This document shows, one piece after another, positions 33,350-40,101 of a DNA stretch of 44,055 bases; within the stretch, counting starts at the first letter, position 1, and each line of letters opens with the position of its first letter. A program made the translations under genes and the position numbers. Origin of the DNA: Chitinophagaceae bacterium (GTDB lineage: Bacteria; Bacteroidota; Bacteroidia; Chitinophagales; Chitinophagaceae); NCBI GenBank assembly GCA_947453295.1, contig CANGGD010000007.1:1-44055 (forward strand), read 5' to 3'. Below the pieces are notes generated by a model. It was not told where the DNA came from. It searched no databases and saw only the letters and a list, made by a program, of their open reading frames with translations.

Positions 33350-36300
33350 TTACTCCACAGTAATCATACTTGATGTAGTGAAATCTTCTCCTGAAAGTTT
33401 TATTTGATAATTACCAGCTTGTATCACTGGGCTTAACTGAATACTATATTTATATTGATTTGAAATAGTATTGAATATGGTTTTTTGAATTTGATGCCCA
33501 AGTATATCTAAAATTTCAAGTGAATAAAGACTTGTTTTATTTTGTTTGAAATAAATATTCAAAGTTTTATTTTTTACTGGATTCGGATATATTGATATGA
33601 ATTGATCGATATTTATAAACTCTACTTTTACAACATTGCTATATTTTTTATCTCCGCTTTTTTCAATCATGACTACTCTGTAGTAATTAAAATGTAAAGA
33701 AGGATATTTATCGTTAAAAATATATTCGTTTTCACTAGTATTAGATTTTTTGACAGCTATTTTTCCAAGGTTGAAAAAATGTTTACCATCTAAGCTTTTT
33801 TCAAGAATGTAATAATTCACATTTATTTCATCAGCAACACGCCAATTAATATCAATTGTTTTTTGCTCGTTCACATTCGCATGTACTGAAACAAATTTAA
33901 CTGGCAACTGTACGGTGGGTCTAAATACTATAATAAATCTTTCCGGATTGTATGATCCAGAATCATTGTTAACAAAGAATGATATGCTTGCCTTTCGATC
34001 AAGGTTAAAATTTGTTTCTGTGTTTAAATACCTGTCAATCAATATTCCATTTAAACTGCTTGTATTAAAATTAGTTGGATAAAAATCGAAAATATAATTT
34101 CTTTGTTTTAAAGAATTTAGATACACTTTTAAAGTGTCATTTTCCTGTATTTCTTTTCGTCTTTCTACAACGAGTTTTGTTGAATTGTTTATGATTGAAA
34201 TAGATTCTGTGCTGGAAAATAATTTTAGTGCATCATACTCATCAACTTCATTAGAAAATTGATCGGCAAAATCTGCAGTAATGCCGTCTAATAAAATGCT
34301 GTCATTGCTTGATTGCACTAATAAATTAATAGCTAATCTTTTAAATGAAATTGCACTACTTCTATTTACCAAATTAGATAGTGTATCTGCTTTTGCAGAT
34401 TCTTTAAATTGAACAATACCACCATTATTACCAGATGCATGTACAAAAAAAGCACTTCCGGATTGTATATATCCTTTTACATCATTGTTTGGAGCTGCTG
34501 GATAACTGCCACTTCCTGGTGATACATGATAGGTTCCATTTAAGTTAGAGGTAAATGTTTGATACCCGCCATATCCATAGGGAGAGTTGGCATTGTTTGT
34601 TAATTTAGGATCCCATAAATAAAATAAATCTTGCACACCACCTGTTTTGGTAAGTAAGGCAAAATCAACAATTGATGCATAAGGATTTCCGATAGATTCA
34701 AAAGAGTTAGCAGTTACATATGGAACAGGTGGGGGATAATTTGATACATCATATAAAAATCCTTTTGATCTTAATATTGTAGGACTAGGCGTTTGAGAAT
34801 TGGATGTAATAAAACGGTTGCCTTTAATAAAAATCATGTATCCCGTACTGTTATTTACTAATGCTCTTGTGCTATCTATACCTACCCAATTATTAATTGC
34901 TGAGTTATAATATTTCATACTTGCAAACTGAGAAACGCCATCAAAGCCCAACGCGACAGCATTTGAAAGATTTGATGTGATTTGTGTTCCATATCCCGGG
35001 CTATTATTACTTGTATTATTTGTTGCGTTTTCCTGCCAAGAAGCCTTTATGGTTTGACCAATGGTAGGTGTACTTAAAAACTGCCATGATTTCCCATGCT
35101 GATTAGCACCAACACCTGTAGCAATATATCGTTCTACAATAACTCTTCCTGTGTCGTAAGTAATATTTGCATTATCACCAATTGATGAAAAATTGGCAGT
35201 GCCATTTGAGTCAGATAGTAAAGTAATATCGTAATTTCTTTTTAGGGAGAGTACGCCTTCTTTGATACTTAATGTTTTTCCAATTTTAACGGATTTACTA
35301 AGAAATACAGTATCGCTAATAAGTGCACCAGTATTACTGATTTCTAATTTTCCTTTTACTGTATCAGGCAAACCTAAGCCAGTGTTTTGATTAGTAATTC
35401 CAATATAAATATAGCTTGCATTTTTACTAAAATTTCTTGTTGTCATTCGTATACTGCCTAATTCATTTGCAGTTAAACCAGCAGCCCCGGTTGGTGTTAT
35501 TCCTGCAGGGTTTGATATATATAAACTTGCGCCTGCATTTAGATTAAAAGTTCCAGTTCCTACGAATCCACATCCAGGCAAGCATCTCACTGCGCCATTT
35601 ACATTTAATACTCCAGTTGAAAAGCTTTTATTAGAAGTTAATGTTGCTTTTGAATTGGAGGCTATTACAAGTTTGCCTAAACCATTAAGATTTATATTGC
35701 CTCCATTTAATATAGCAGTGTCTCCATCAATAATTAAATCTCCTGTGCCACTGTTTGTAATACTACTTAGACCGGTCATTCCATTTCTCAAATATTTAAT
35801 ACCAGCAGAATCAAATGTTACAGATGCTGCAGCATTAAATATTCCATTAATTCTAAGTGTATCTCTTGAGCCTATAATGTTATTAGCTTGTGAAATTCTA
35901 AAATTAGTGGTATCGGTTGGAAGTGCATTTGGAAAATAGGTGCATCGGTAAGACTCAAAACTAGTGGAGGCAGCCCAATCATAAACAGATCCAGATGCAA
36001 AATATACATTACTAGATCGAGCAAAATCATCACTTGTAGATGGGGAATTATTACTTTTTACTTTTACAACACCTCCATTGTTGACCAATATTTTACCTCC
36101 GACATTTAAAGTAGGTTGATTACCAAACATTTCGTATGTGCCTCCAATAATGAAATCGTATCCTGTTGTATCTGTAATATTTAAATTAAAAGCACTTGAA
36201 TTATTATCATAAGTTAAAGCACCCCCCGCTTCGATTAAAAGTCTCTTTGCTGTAACATCACTTGCTATAGTATCTGTTAACCCAGCAGAAATAACTATGG

Positions 36301-37114
36301 CTCGGGCAGCATTAGTCGGGTATACAGAAGTGTTAGACCAATAAACACTATCTGGCGAAGCCTGCCAAATGGTACTGTCGTTCCATTTTCCACTACCCTT
36401 TGTTCTATAAAAACTATTGGGGTTTGTAATGATACCTGTTACTTTTATATTGTCTAATAATACAATAGGAAAATTACCACTACCCGCAGCAGAATAATCA
36501 TAAAACCTAAAAACACAAGTAGCATTATTATTATAACCAGCTGGTATTTTTAAACTAATGTGTAGATTATTAGGTGAACTATTATTCACAGGTCTATAAT
36601 CTGTAGTATTACTTGTTAATTCTGTAAAACTTGTTCCATTGTTAATACTCCCAAATACTTTAAATATGCTTGTTTTGCTCGCATTTGCAGTATTAATTAA
36701 TGTACTTACATCCATAGTTAATGAATCAACTGTAACTCCGCTGAAATTGATAAGTAAATCTAATGCCACTTGTTTTCCAGCAGCAGCTAAAAACTTTAAG
36801 TTGGTTGTCCCTTTTCCAATACCACTTGTAGTACCTGTTGTATTTACAAAACTGGTACATTGATCAGAAATTAGAGTGCCTGCAGCCGTTGTTCCTGCAG
36901 AGACAGCCACCCCGCGCCACCTGTTTGCACCCAAACCCGTTCCGCCCGGAGCACTCCAATTGGCAATTGAATCAAAATTTTCGGTGTACATTAATCCATT
37001 TAAACTGCTCATAGGTACAGCAGTTTGTGAATAAGCACTACTTGAAATAATGAAGGAAAAGAAAAATATCGCTCTACATAAAATCTGAGAATGGCAATGT
37101 TTGATAATTTCCAT
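33350..37114 (-). CDS. Large secreted/cell-surface protein with T9SS type A sorting domain
   Basis: Signal peptide ('FFFSFIISSSAYSQ'); long beta-rich Asn/Thr/Ser-rich body; C-terminus 'ISIYPNPVKNKTLNIYF...SLEILDILGHQIQK...AGNYQIKLSGEDFTTSSMITVE'. Confidence 0.88.
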   Translation of the reverse strand: MEIIKHCHSQILCRAIFFFSFIISSSAYSQTAVPMSSLNGLMYTENFDSIANWSAPGGTGLGANRWRGVAVSAGTTAAGTLISDQCTSFVNTTGTTSGIGKGTTNLKFLAAAGKQVALDLLINFSGVTVDSLTMDVSTLINTANASKTSIFKVFGSINNGTSFTELTSNTTDYRPVNNSSPNNLHISLKIPAGYNNNATCVFRFYDYSAAGSGNFPIVLLDNIKVTGIITNPNSFYRTKGSGKWNDSTIWQASPDSVYWSNTSVYPTNAARAIVISAGLTDTIASDVTAKRLLIEAGGALTYDNNSSAFNLNITDTTGYDFIIGGTYEMFGNQPTLNVGGKILVNNGGVVKVKSNNSPSTSDDFARSSNVYFASGSVYDWAASTSFESYRCTYFPNALPTDTTNFRISQANNIIGSRDTLRINGIFNAAASVTFDSAGIKYLRNGMTGLSSITNSGTGDLIIDGDTAILNGGNINLNGLGKLVIASNSKATLTSNKSFSTGVLNVNGAVRCLPGCGFVGTGTFNLNAGASLYISNPAGITPTGAAGLTANELGSIRMTTRNFSKNASYIYIGITNQNTGLGLPDTVKGKLEISNTGALISDTVFLSKSVKIGKTLSIKEGVLSLKRNYDITLLSDSNGTANFSSIGDNANITYDTGRVIVERYIATGVGANQHGKSWQFLSTPTIGQTIKASWQENATNNTSNNSPGYGTQITSNLSNAVALGFDGVSQFASMKYYNSAINNWVGIDSTRALVNNSTGYMIFIKGNRFITSNSQTPSPTILRSKGFLYDVSNYPPPVPYVTANSFESIGNPYASIVDFALLTKTGGVQDLFYLWDPKLTNNANSPYGYGGYQTFTSNLNGTYHVSPGSGSYPAAPNNDVKGYIQSGSAFFVHASGNNGGIVQFKESAKADTLSNLVNRSSAISFKRLAINLLVQSSNDSILLDGITADFADQFSNEVDEYDALKLFSSTESISIINNSTKLVVERRKEIQENDTLKVYLNSLKQRNYIFDFYPTNFNTSSLNGILIDRYLNTETNFNLDRKASISFFVNNDSGSYNPERFIIVFRPTVQLPVKFVSVHANVNEQKTIDINWRVADEINVNYYILEKSLDGKHFFNLGKIAVKKSNTSENEYIFNDKYPSLHFNYYRVVMIEKSGDKKYSNVVKVEFINIDQFISIYPNPVKNKTLNIYFKQNKTSLYSLEILDILGHQIQKTIFNTISNQYKYSIQLSPVIQAGNYQIKLSGEDFTTSSMITVE

Positions 37115-37195: not shown

Positions 37196-38284
37196 TTAAT
37201 CTCTTTTTATGGATATAGGGTAAATAGCGACTCCCTGCTTTGTTGTAGCCTTTATTTTATAAATACTTTCGTACAATTTTTGTGTGTCAAAATAAGCTAT
37301 GGTTGAACCTTTATATAAGATAGTTTCATTTATTAGTGTAGCATTTGAATCCAATAGTTGCAAAACAATATCTTCTTCATTTAATCCTTTACATTGAATA
37401 ATTATTAATTCACTTTTCGCTGAAAAGATAACAATTAATTCATTTTCTTTTTCTGCAGTATTCATTGATTCAAAATTTCTTTTCTTGTATTCTATAATCG
37501 GTTCATATATTGAATCTATTTTTTTGTTGTTGACTTTTCCATAAAAATTTGGACCAACAAAAAAAGGGTAACTAGGAGAGTTGTTGGAATCTACTGTAGC
37601 AAAATAACAATAAGTGCCTAAAGGATATTCTGGTGTAATGCAAAACTTACCATTGTGCTCATCTGTATAATTTTCCCCAGAGTGAGGAATGTATTCGTAA
37701 TCGCTCTCAAAAAAACCTAACGGAAACTTTTTTGAAACTTTTGGCCCTGTTTTCTTTTTAATGCCACCTTCAATACTATTCCTTCTTTTTATATTTTTTA
37801 ATTGGTAACTAGAATGCATTATTACGCTAGTTTCTTCACTATCTTTTTGAATAATATAGGCATCGTAAATTGGATAACCATCCATTGCAAACCCAATTAT
37901 AGAGGGCGCTTTGGCGTCTTTTTTTAAATTTGAAAATAATGTATTCCAATTTATATTTTCATTTGAAAATATCTTTTTTCCATTTAATAACAGGCCTTTT
38001 AAATTTATCGGTTCATTTTTTCGCAGACTGTCTTCTTGTGGATGTATTGGAAAATCATATAGCTTATTTTCTAAGTCTTTTATATAAACTGAATTCAATG
38101 AGAAAAATACGGATTTGATAGTTGATGAATCTTCAATGCCAGGCTCATTTATTTTCCATGAGTTTATAATAGGTAAAGTTTGCGCTGAACAAGCATGAAC
38201 AAATGAAAACAAAATCAAAAAGATGAAATTTATCTTGTTGTTGATTGCGTTTTCATTTTTAAATGTGATTATTCTAGAACTCAT
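37196..38284 (-). CDS. YHYH-domain family exported protein with T9SS-CTD-like tail
   Basis: 'SIIGFAMDGYPIYDAY' and 'DEHNGKFCITPEYPLGTYCYFATVDSNNSPSYPFFVGPNFYG' match the YHYH family core. Signal peptide ends SAQ; C-terminal 'LQLLDSNATLINETILYKGSTIAYFDTQKLYESIYKIKATT' resembles a sorting-domain fold. Confidence 0.78.
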   Translation of the reverse strand: MSSRIITFKNENAINNKINFIFLILFSFVHACSAQTLPIINSWKINEPGIEDSSTIKSVFFSLNSVYIKDLENKLYDFPIHPQEDSLRKNEPINLKGLLLNGKKIFSNENINWNTLFSNLKKDAKAPSIIGFAMDGYPIYDAYIIQKDSEETSVIMHSSYQLKNIKRRNSIEGGIKKKTGPKVSKKFPLGFFESDYEYIPHSGENYTDEHNGKFCITPEYPLGTYCYFATVDSNNSPSYPFFVGPNFYGKVNNKKIDSIYEPIIEYKKRNFESMNTAEKENELIVIFSAKSELIIIQCKGLNEEDIVLQLLDSNATLINETILYKGSTIAYFDTQKLYESIYKIKATTKQGVAIYPISIKRD

Positions 38285-38303
38285 GTATAAAAATAATATT
38301 TTT

Positions 38304-38333
38304 CAAATTTATCTGTTTAAATTTAGTATTCAA
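38304..38333 (-). promoter_or_regulatory. Promoter of the YHYH-family gene
   Basis: Minus strand TTG (38333-38331), 19-nt spacer, TAAATTTG (38311-38304); 19 nt before ATG. Confidence 0.65.
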
Positions 38334-38353
38334 TTTCTTTATTAAAATTCAAT

Positions 38354-39070
38354 ATGGATTATTTTCGTCCGCACTTAATGCTCTTAAGAATCAGCCTAAT
38401 GGCATTTATTTTTTCTTTTCTTTTTTCAAAAGTTTTTGCACAAGAAAAATCTATTCGATTTGATTTTGGTTTGTTGTATAAAGATCAAATGATAAAAATG
38501 AATAAGGATTATTTTTTTAAATCTTCCAATGATAGTTTTAAAATTACTGTTTTGAAATTTTATATTTCAAATATTTGCTTTTACGATAAAGACAAACTGG
38601 TGTGGTCTGAAAAAAACAGCACTCATCTGGTTGATGTAAATGCAAAAGGCTTCTTCACAGTAAATATGCCTAATCAACTCAATATTGATAAAGTTTCATT
38701 TGACCTTGGGATAGATAGTGTTACCAATACTTCGGGCGCACTGGATGGCGACTTAGATCCTATGCTAGGAATGTATTGGACATGGCAAAGTGGTTATATC
38801 AATTTAAAATTGGAGGGATTATATAATTATTCTGACATGCAGCAACAACCTTTCGAATTTCATATAGGGGGATACAATGGAGAAGATAATGCATTGCAAC
38901 ATTTGTATTTTGATGTAAATCCAGGTAAAAATAAACTAAGTTATAAATTTAAGCTTGATTCAATATTAAATGAATTGAAAAATATAAACTATAAGCATTT
39001 AATGTCTCCGGGAATAAATGCAGTTCTGTTTTCAAAAATGATTGGAAAAAATATAATCCTCACTCAATAA
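38354..39070 (+). CDS. MbnP-like exported copper-binding protein
   Basis: Signal peptide ending FAQ; 'FDLGIDSVTNTSGALDGDLDPMLGMYWTWQSGYINLKLEG' and 'FHIGGYNG' match the MbnP family signature. Confidence 0.82.
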   Translation: MDYFRPHLMLLRISLMAFIFSFLFSKVFAQEKSIRFDFGLLYKDQMIKMNKDYFFKSSNDSFKITVLKFYISNICFYDKDKLVWSEKNSTHLVDVNAKGFFTVNMPNQLNIDKVSFDLGIDSVTNTSGALDGDLDPMLGMYWTWQSGYINLKLEGLYNYSDMQQQPFEFHIGGYNGEDNALQHLYFDVNPGKNKLSYKFKLDSILNELKNINYKHLMSPGINAVLFSKMIGKNIILTQ

Positions 39071-39096
39071 TCAATGACCATAAAATCAACAAATAA

Positions 39097-40101
39097 ATGA
39101 AACGCTTTGTTGCCATTGCAATTTTATTGGTGTTTATATTCTCATCATTTAAATGGATAGATGATTTCGCTGCGTTATATCCTGTTTATTGGCCTAAGCC
39201 AACTTATGATTTTTCAAAAAATAAATTTTCAAAAGAAAAAGTAGAGCTTGGAAGAAAGTTGTTTTATGATCCTATTTTTTCAAAAAATAATAAAATTTCT
39301 TGTGCTAGCTGCCATTCTCCATATTCCTCTTTTGCACATATTGATCATGCATTGAGTCATGGTATTGATGACAGTATTGGTACTAGAAATGCCCCTGTAT
39401 TGATTAATCTAGCTTGGCAAAAATATTTCATGTGGGATGGTTCTATTTTAAATTTAGATAAGCAGGCATTGACACCTATTACTCATCCACGAGAAATGGG
39501 GGAGAGTATGAATCATGTAATTTCTAAATTACAACAATCGAATGTTTATCCAATACTGTTTTCTAAAATCTATGGGGATAGTTTAATTAAGGAAGACAGA
39601 GTGCTAAAATGCATTACACAATTTCTGATTTCATTAGTAAGCTGTCACTCTAAATATGATAGCGTAATGAATCATACTGCTTCATTTACCAAACAAGAAC
39701 AAAATGGATATGTTTTGTTTAAAAGAAATTGTGCTGCTTGTCATCAGGAGCCATTATTTACAAACAACCAATTTTCCAAAAATGAATTAGCAGTTAACAC
39801 ATCCCTTTTGGATTTTGGTAGAATGAATTTTACAGACGATAGAAAAGATTCATTGTTATTTAAGGTCCCTACATTAAGAAATATAGAATACTCTTATCCT
39901 TATATGCATGATGGCAGATTCACAAAATTGGGAGATGTATTAAATCATTATGTAAGCATTAAGCCTTCGGTTCATAATACCAAAGCCTTACAAAAAGGAA
40001 TGAAACTTTCCTCCAATGAGAAAATAGATATAATTGCTTTTTTATTGACGCTATCTGATAGGAATTTCATTTTTAATGAAGAGCATTTATATCCAAAGTA
40101 A
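39097..40101 (+). CDS. Diheme cytochrome c peroxidase / MauG/MbnH-like enzyme
   Basis: Two CxxCH motifs (CASCH, CAACH); RNAPVLINLAWQKYFMWDGSILNLDKQALTPI; FKVPTLRNIEYSYPYMHDGRF; signal peptide; 26 nt after mbnP-like gene. Confidence 0.85.
   Translation: MKRFVAIAILLVFIFSSFKWIDDFAALYPVYWPKPTYDFSKNKFSKEKVELGRKLFYDPIFSKNNKISCASCHSPYSSFAHIDHALSHGIDDSIGTRNAPVLINLAWQKYFMWDGSILNLDKQALTPITHPREMGESMNHVISKLQQSNVYPILFSKIYGDSLIKEDRVLKCITQFLISLVSCHSKYDSVMNHTASFTKQEQNGYVLFKRNCAACHQEPLFTNNQFSKNELAVNTSLLDFGRMNFTDDRKDSLLFKVPTLRNIEYSYPYMHDGRFTKLGDVLNHYVSIKPSVHNTKALQKGMKLSSNEKIDIIAFLLTLSDRNFIFNEEHLYPK

Follow-up and report, generated by a model that had tools for sequence, protein, structure and literature searches.

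The window analyzed here is a stretch of 44,055 nucleotides from the genome of a Chitinophagaceae bacterium (contig CANGGD010000007.1, forward strand), and all coordinates below are positions in this window unless a locus label (L followed by a number) is given. Gene boundaries were taken from the open reading frames of the window and their translations, and families were assigned by comparing Pfam profile scores with the curated cut-offs. The locus under study contains the following features:

37196–38284, minus strand: reduced YHYH-family protein, 362 aa (PF14240, 87.7 bits, profile positions 81–185 only)
38285–38353: divergent spacer of 69 bp between the YHYH and MbnP genes
38354–39070, plus strand: MbnP, 238 aa, with a signal peptide (PF20243, 120.2 bits; model matches PDB 7l6g)
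39097–40101, plus strand: MbnH-like diheme enzyme of the MauG superfamily, 334 aa (PF03150, 168.8 bits; TIGR04039, 189.1 bits)

The three reading frames lie where the initial annotation had placed them, separated by 69 nt on the divergent side and by 26 nt between MbnP and the diheme gene. The annotation had read them as YHYH-family, MbnP-signature and MauG/MbnH-like proteins, and profile searches agree, all three proteins scoring above the Pfam cut-offs (25 bits for PF14240, 27 for PF20243 and 25.6 for PF03150). A script scan of the spacer found a promoter-like site, TTG-N19-TAAATTTG, at 38304–38333, directed toward the YHYH gene with its first base at 38333 on the minus strand; about 0.02 such sites are expected by chance in a stretch of this size. 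We take TTG-N19-TAAATTTG to represent the −33/−7 promoter type of Bacteroidota, using a consensus from general knowledge. Toward MbnP, the scan of the spacer returned no matching promoter-like site. On its other side the YHYH gene adjoins a gene on the same strand (33350–37114) for a secreted protein of 1254 aa with a T9SS sorting tail.

The description of the first gene product as an exported YHYH-family protein holds with regard to the PF14240 match, but the eponymous motif is absent and the match is confined to positions 81–185 of the 193 in the profile. The protein is composed of a signal peptide, the C-terminal half of the YHYH domain and a beta domain resembling a T9SS tail, in which the tail motifs are weak. 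When aligned to canonical members, it lacks residues 143–157 and 162–215 (L066 numbering), a loss of about 70 residues that takes with it the region of the conserved Trp157. We searched the alignment for the YHxH motif and the conserved Asp and His residues, and found D170, H175, Y181, H182 and H184 all deleted in the window copy, while the equivalent of H217, the His of an HSP motif, is Ala. Judged by this alignment, the window protein is a YHYH-family member without the YHYH motif. For the YHYH domain, a Zn-dependent hydrolase activity with a site of three His and one Asp has been predicted (PMC7824862). The window protein shares the C-terminal half with the YHYH domain of phage tails and bacteria (PF14240), but the predicted Zn site is missing.

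Such losses could point to decay of the local YHYH gene, as a remnant of an ancestral cassette with no role of its own, leaving the neighboring pair to work alone. The missing motif and residues, the change of the HSP His to Ala, the weak tail motifs and a branch length of 2.2 in the YHYH tree, against a median of 0.27, all fit this explanation, as does the presence of canonical YHYH copies elsewhere in the same genome. We nevertheless consider it unlikely. The frame is open over 362 aa, the promoter-like site faces the gene, and the C-terminal half shows strong conservation (DxHNG[KR]FCxTPEYPxGxYCYF). Moreover, the same reduced form is found with open frames in two genomes of the same genus (L194 and L195), at 41–45% identity. 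The L194 protein (343 aa, 45% identity) is encoded directly beside MbnP and the diheme enzyme (CCP) and on one strand with them; that of L195 is incomplete at a contig end and lies behind a canonical YHYH gene. Because these two genomes share the loss of the motif and keep open frames at such distance, the motif-less YHYH protein looks like a retained genus-level variant rather than a product of decay.

The window genome (2.08 Mb, 95.5% complete) contains four YHYH-family matches and one MbnP. The canonical YHYH copies are located on two other contigs, and one of them follows a 1115-aa protein in which a multicopper oxidase, a sulfatase and a T9SS tail are fused (L103, 4417–7764, contig C3). 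In L102 (6632–10691, contig C37), the second canonical copy is closely preceded by a gene for a 738-aa peroxidase-family protein of catalase-peroxidase size.

Turning to the pair, MbnP falls below the cut-off of the TIGR04052 equivalog (35.3 versus 140 bits), and its 38 relatives that were scanned with TIGR04052 are likewise all moderate matches (best E 6.7e-14). Since the equivalog score was this low and searches of the PDB by sequence, with the single sequence as well as with a profile, returned no relative, we tested the fold. An AlphaFold2 model built from 38 sequences (mean pLDDT 87) matched each of the six chains of MbnP from Methylosinus (7l6g), with E-values of 5e-7 to 6e-6 and a probability of 1.00, at 12–13% sequence identity; the first unrelated fold followed with a probability of 0.12. 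The window MbnP contains a WxW motif (Trp142-x-Trp144) together with Met140 and His170, and these four residues are invariant in 78 MbnPs that neighbor YHYH and at least 97% conserved in 31 other MbnPs. In the study of the solved MbnP, the first Trp of WxW is reportedly converted to kynurenine, and copper is held with one His and one Met. By this likeness, we infer that His170 and Met140 are the copper ligands in the window protein. MbnP is common in the host's family, being carried by 144 of 200 genomes.

The diheme enzyme retains both haem motifs; the two CxxCH that the initial annotation had pointed out are indeed present, at residues 69–73 and 212–216, along with Trp113 and Glu133, which are conserved in relatives. 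Its TIGR04039 score is below the cut-off of this MbnH equivalog (189.1 versus 362.85 bits). CCP_MauG is a broad family, and in a search with the single sequence true cytochrome c peroxidases score above MbnH, as would be expected of an ordinary H2O2 peroxidase whose MbnP-like partner stays unmodified and free of kynurenine. We find this reading quite improbable, because MbnH (6e1c) becomes the best PDB match once the family profile of 28 sequences is used, and because Tyr285, conserved in 106 of 106 aligned relatives, is aligned with a Tyr of 6e1c at a position where the bacterial peroxidases listed in the alignment have none. The adjoining partner also keeps WxW, Met and His invariant. Tyr285 would thus replace Met as distal haem ligand. 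Together, the haem motifs, Trp113, Glu133, Tyr285 and the match to 6e1c place the enzyme with the MbnH/MauG type rather than with ordinary peroxidases. The earlier recognition of the two genes as an MbnP and MbnH-type pair is therefore borne out by the PF20243 match, the 7l6g fold and the family relationship to 6e1c.

The pair had also been proposed to be independent of methanobactin. No methanobactin or TonB gene is apparent among the open reading frames of the window, in line with the initial annotation, and a search of the whole genome, which is 95.5% complete, for the MbnB family (PF05114) gave no match, while two control genomes did match; the proposed independence is thus supported. Compared with MbnP-MbnH of Methylosinus trichosporium OB3b (7l6g and 6e1c), the window pair has the same MbnP fold, the WxW, Met and His residues, the MauG-type Tyr and the adjacent genes, but the sequence identity is 12–13%, the genome has no methanobactin biosynthesis gene and the pair has a YHYH neighbor. 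We are not aware of any kynurenine-based copper site demonstrated experimentally in Bacteroidota. In methanotrophs, CorA-CorB and MopE-SACCP likewise combine a copper protein that contains kynurenine with a diheme CCP-like partner, and are copper-repressed (PMC3912023); in the window pair, the kynurenine is predicted. MbnP has no marked sequence similarity to CorA or MopE (PMC3621798). The copper site of these two proteins consists of two His and the kynurenine, unlike that of MbnP.

We next consider the relation of YHYH to the pair. Canonical YHYH proteins carry a T9SS tail (PF18962), which in a structure search matched the PDB entries 8qb1 and 8glk; the meaningful matches were restricted to this tail, and no solved relative of the YHYH core was found. 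In a sample of the host's family, 25 of 40 YHYH reading frames lie only a few genes from MbnP and the diheme enzyme, the YHYH protein being full-length and T9SS-tailed; the order is MbnP>CCP>YHYH in 20 of the 40 and YHYH>MbnP>CCP in 5 more. Among 80 named loci of public genomes, 57 combine YHYH with MbnP and the diheme enzyme and 54 have the order MbnP>CCP>YHYH, but these loci were chosen by similarity to the cassette YHYH (nearly all are from Bacteroidota, one from Ignavibacteriota, and many contigs are cut). A less biased figure comes from an evenly drawn sample of the phylum, where 8 of 22 full-length YHYH loci are at most 5 kb from MbnP, all on the same strand. The gene neighborhood of MbnP, CCP and YHYH, for which the initial annotation had suggested a survey, is thus conserved across Bacteroidota. 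Co-occurrence shows the same trend: MbnP is present in 31/31 other genomes of the family with full-length YHYH versus 112/168 of the rest (p 1e-5, relatedness ignored), and in the phylum sample MbnP is present in 12/21 genomes with full-length YHYH versus 65/275 of the rest (p 0.002, relatedness again ignored).

About one third of YHYH loci show no visible MbnP/CCP pair, partly through contig ends, and YHYH is missing from the majority of MbnP loci in the phylum, which makes YHYH dispensable to the MbnP-MbnH pair. On the YHYH tree the MbnP/CCP neighborhood changes at least 13 times when starred branches alone are counted, a number inflated by cut contigs, and the link therefore appears to have been repeatedly broken or remade. 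The window CCP itself is placed, with modest support, among the YHYH-associated enzymes and not with the YHYH-free pairs. A role of YHYH as a third component, which the initial annotation had called speculative, gains strong genomic support from the conserved cassette, the repeated neighborhood changes on the tree and the co-occurrence, while within the window the copy is reduced and its gene lies on the strand opposite to the pair. On this genomic evidence, YHYH is a plausible third part of a copper system.

In relatives, the cassette is often preceded by genes for an ECF sigma factor (PF04542, PF08281), for a short product without family assignment, positioned like an anti-sigma gene, and for a small exported protein, in whose family 8 of 20 members match Metal_resist. 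This arrangement resembles CnrYXH-type ECF sigma and metal sensor systems, a likeness that we draw from general knowledge; the Metal_resist match is weak, and no such genes are found beside the window pair. YHYH often has multicopper oxidases and sulfatase-like proteins as neighbors, with or without MbnP. It is very improbable that YHYH or the multicopper oxidase, and not MbnP alone, is the real cassette substrate of the diheme enzyme: the tight order CCP>YHYH, at times without a visible MbnP, and the conserved Trp and Tyr residues of YHYH would suit such a role, but YHYH is absent from most MbnP loci and the Trp157 region is deleted in the window copy.

We consider it rather probable, from the sequences and the MbnP model, that the window contains a methanobactin-independent MbnP-MbnH copper pair next to a genus-specific, shortened YHYH-family member whose counterpart in relatives is normally encoded in one operon with the pair. 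Both proteins of the pair would be exported, and peroxide would activate the diheme enzyme via a high-valent, Tyr-ligated diheme center. The activated enzyme would then oxidize Trp142 of MbnP, the first Trp of WxW, to kynurenine, and mature MbnP would hold one Cu(I) with Met140 and His170. In many relatives, the ECF sigma factor, the anti-sigma-like gene and the metal-resistance-like protein head an operon that ends with a canonical, type IX-exported YHYH; this operon is probably metal-regulated and often includes a multicopper oxidase. The simplest reading would be an envelope system responsive to metal, with MbnP handling copper and with YHYH and the oxidase acting on the same metal outside. 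In the genus of the window these parts are split over several loci; in the window genome the canonical YHYH and the oxidase-sulfatase fusion are located elsewhere, and the local YHYH, devoid of the predicted metal site, would probably be a non-catalytic binding partner.

A broader version of this proposal, which we offer tentatively, is that MbnP, the diheme enzyme and T9SS-secreted YHYH belong to a single metal-regulated copper system that is widespread in Bacteroidota. In this version the YHYH domain would be an extracellular protein for copper or another metal that works with a secreted multicopper oxidase, and the window would represent a genus-level variant with a YHYH stripped of its metal site. 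MbnP-MbnH pairs are already known far beyond methanobactin producers (PMC3621798). What is new is the link of YHYH to the pair and the motif-less variant: within a limited literature search, we found neither a paper linking YHYH with bacterial copper proteins nor a description of the YHYH-containing cassette or of the motif-less form. A cassette that joins MbnP-MbnH, YHYH, an ECF sigma factor, a metal-resistance-like protein and multicopper oxidases provides a testable hypothesis for the role of MbnP-MbnH outside methanobactin operons and for the function of YHYH; the motif-less variant amounts to a naturally occurring YHYH mutant.

Lastly, we made two observations on genes around YHYH in other genomes. 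Multicopper oxidase-sulfatase fusions, an unusual domain pairing, also occur in L184, L197, L199 and L204 (1115–1212 aa overall), and the fusion gene either immediately precedes a canonical YHYH gene or is separated from one by a short gene. Stand-alone exported proteins of 114–133 aa (L197, 7195–7596; L198, 7309–7686; L200, 7065–7409; L202, 7291–7635) match the window YHYH solely in its C-terminal T9SS-tail/DUF3244-like domain, at 41–47% identity, and in L197 this protein sits between the oxidase-sulfatase fusion and the canonical YHYH.
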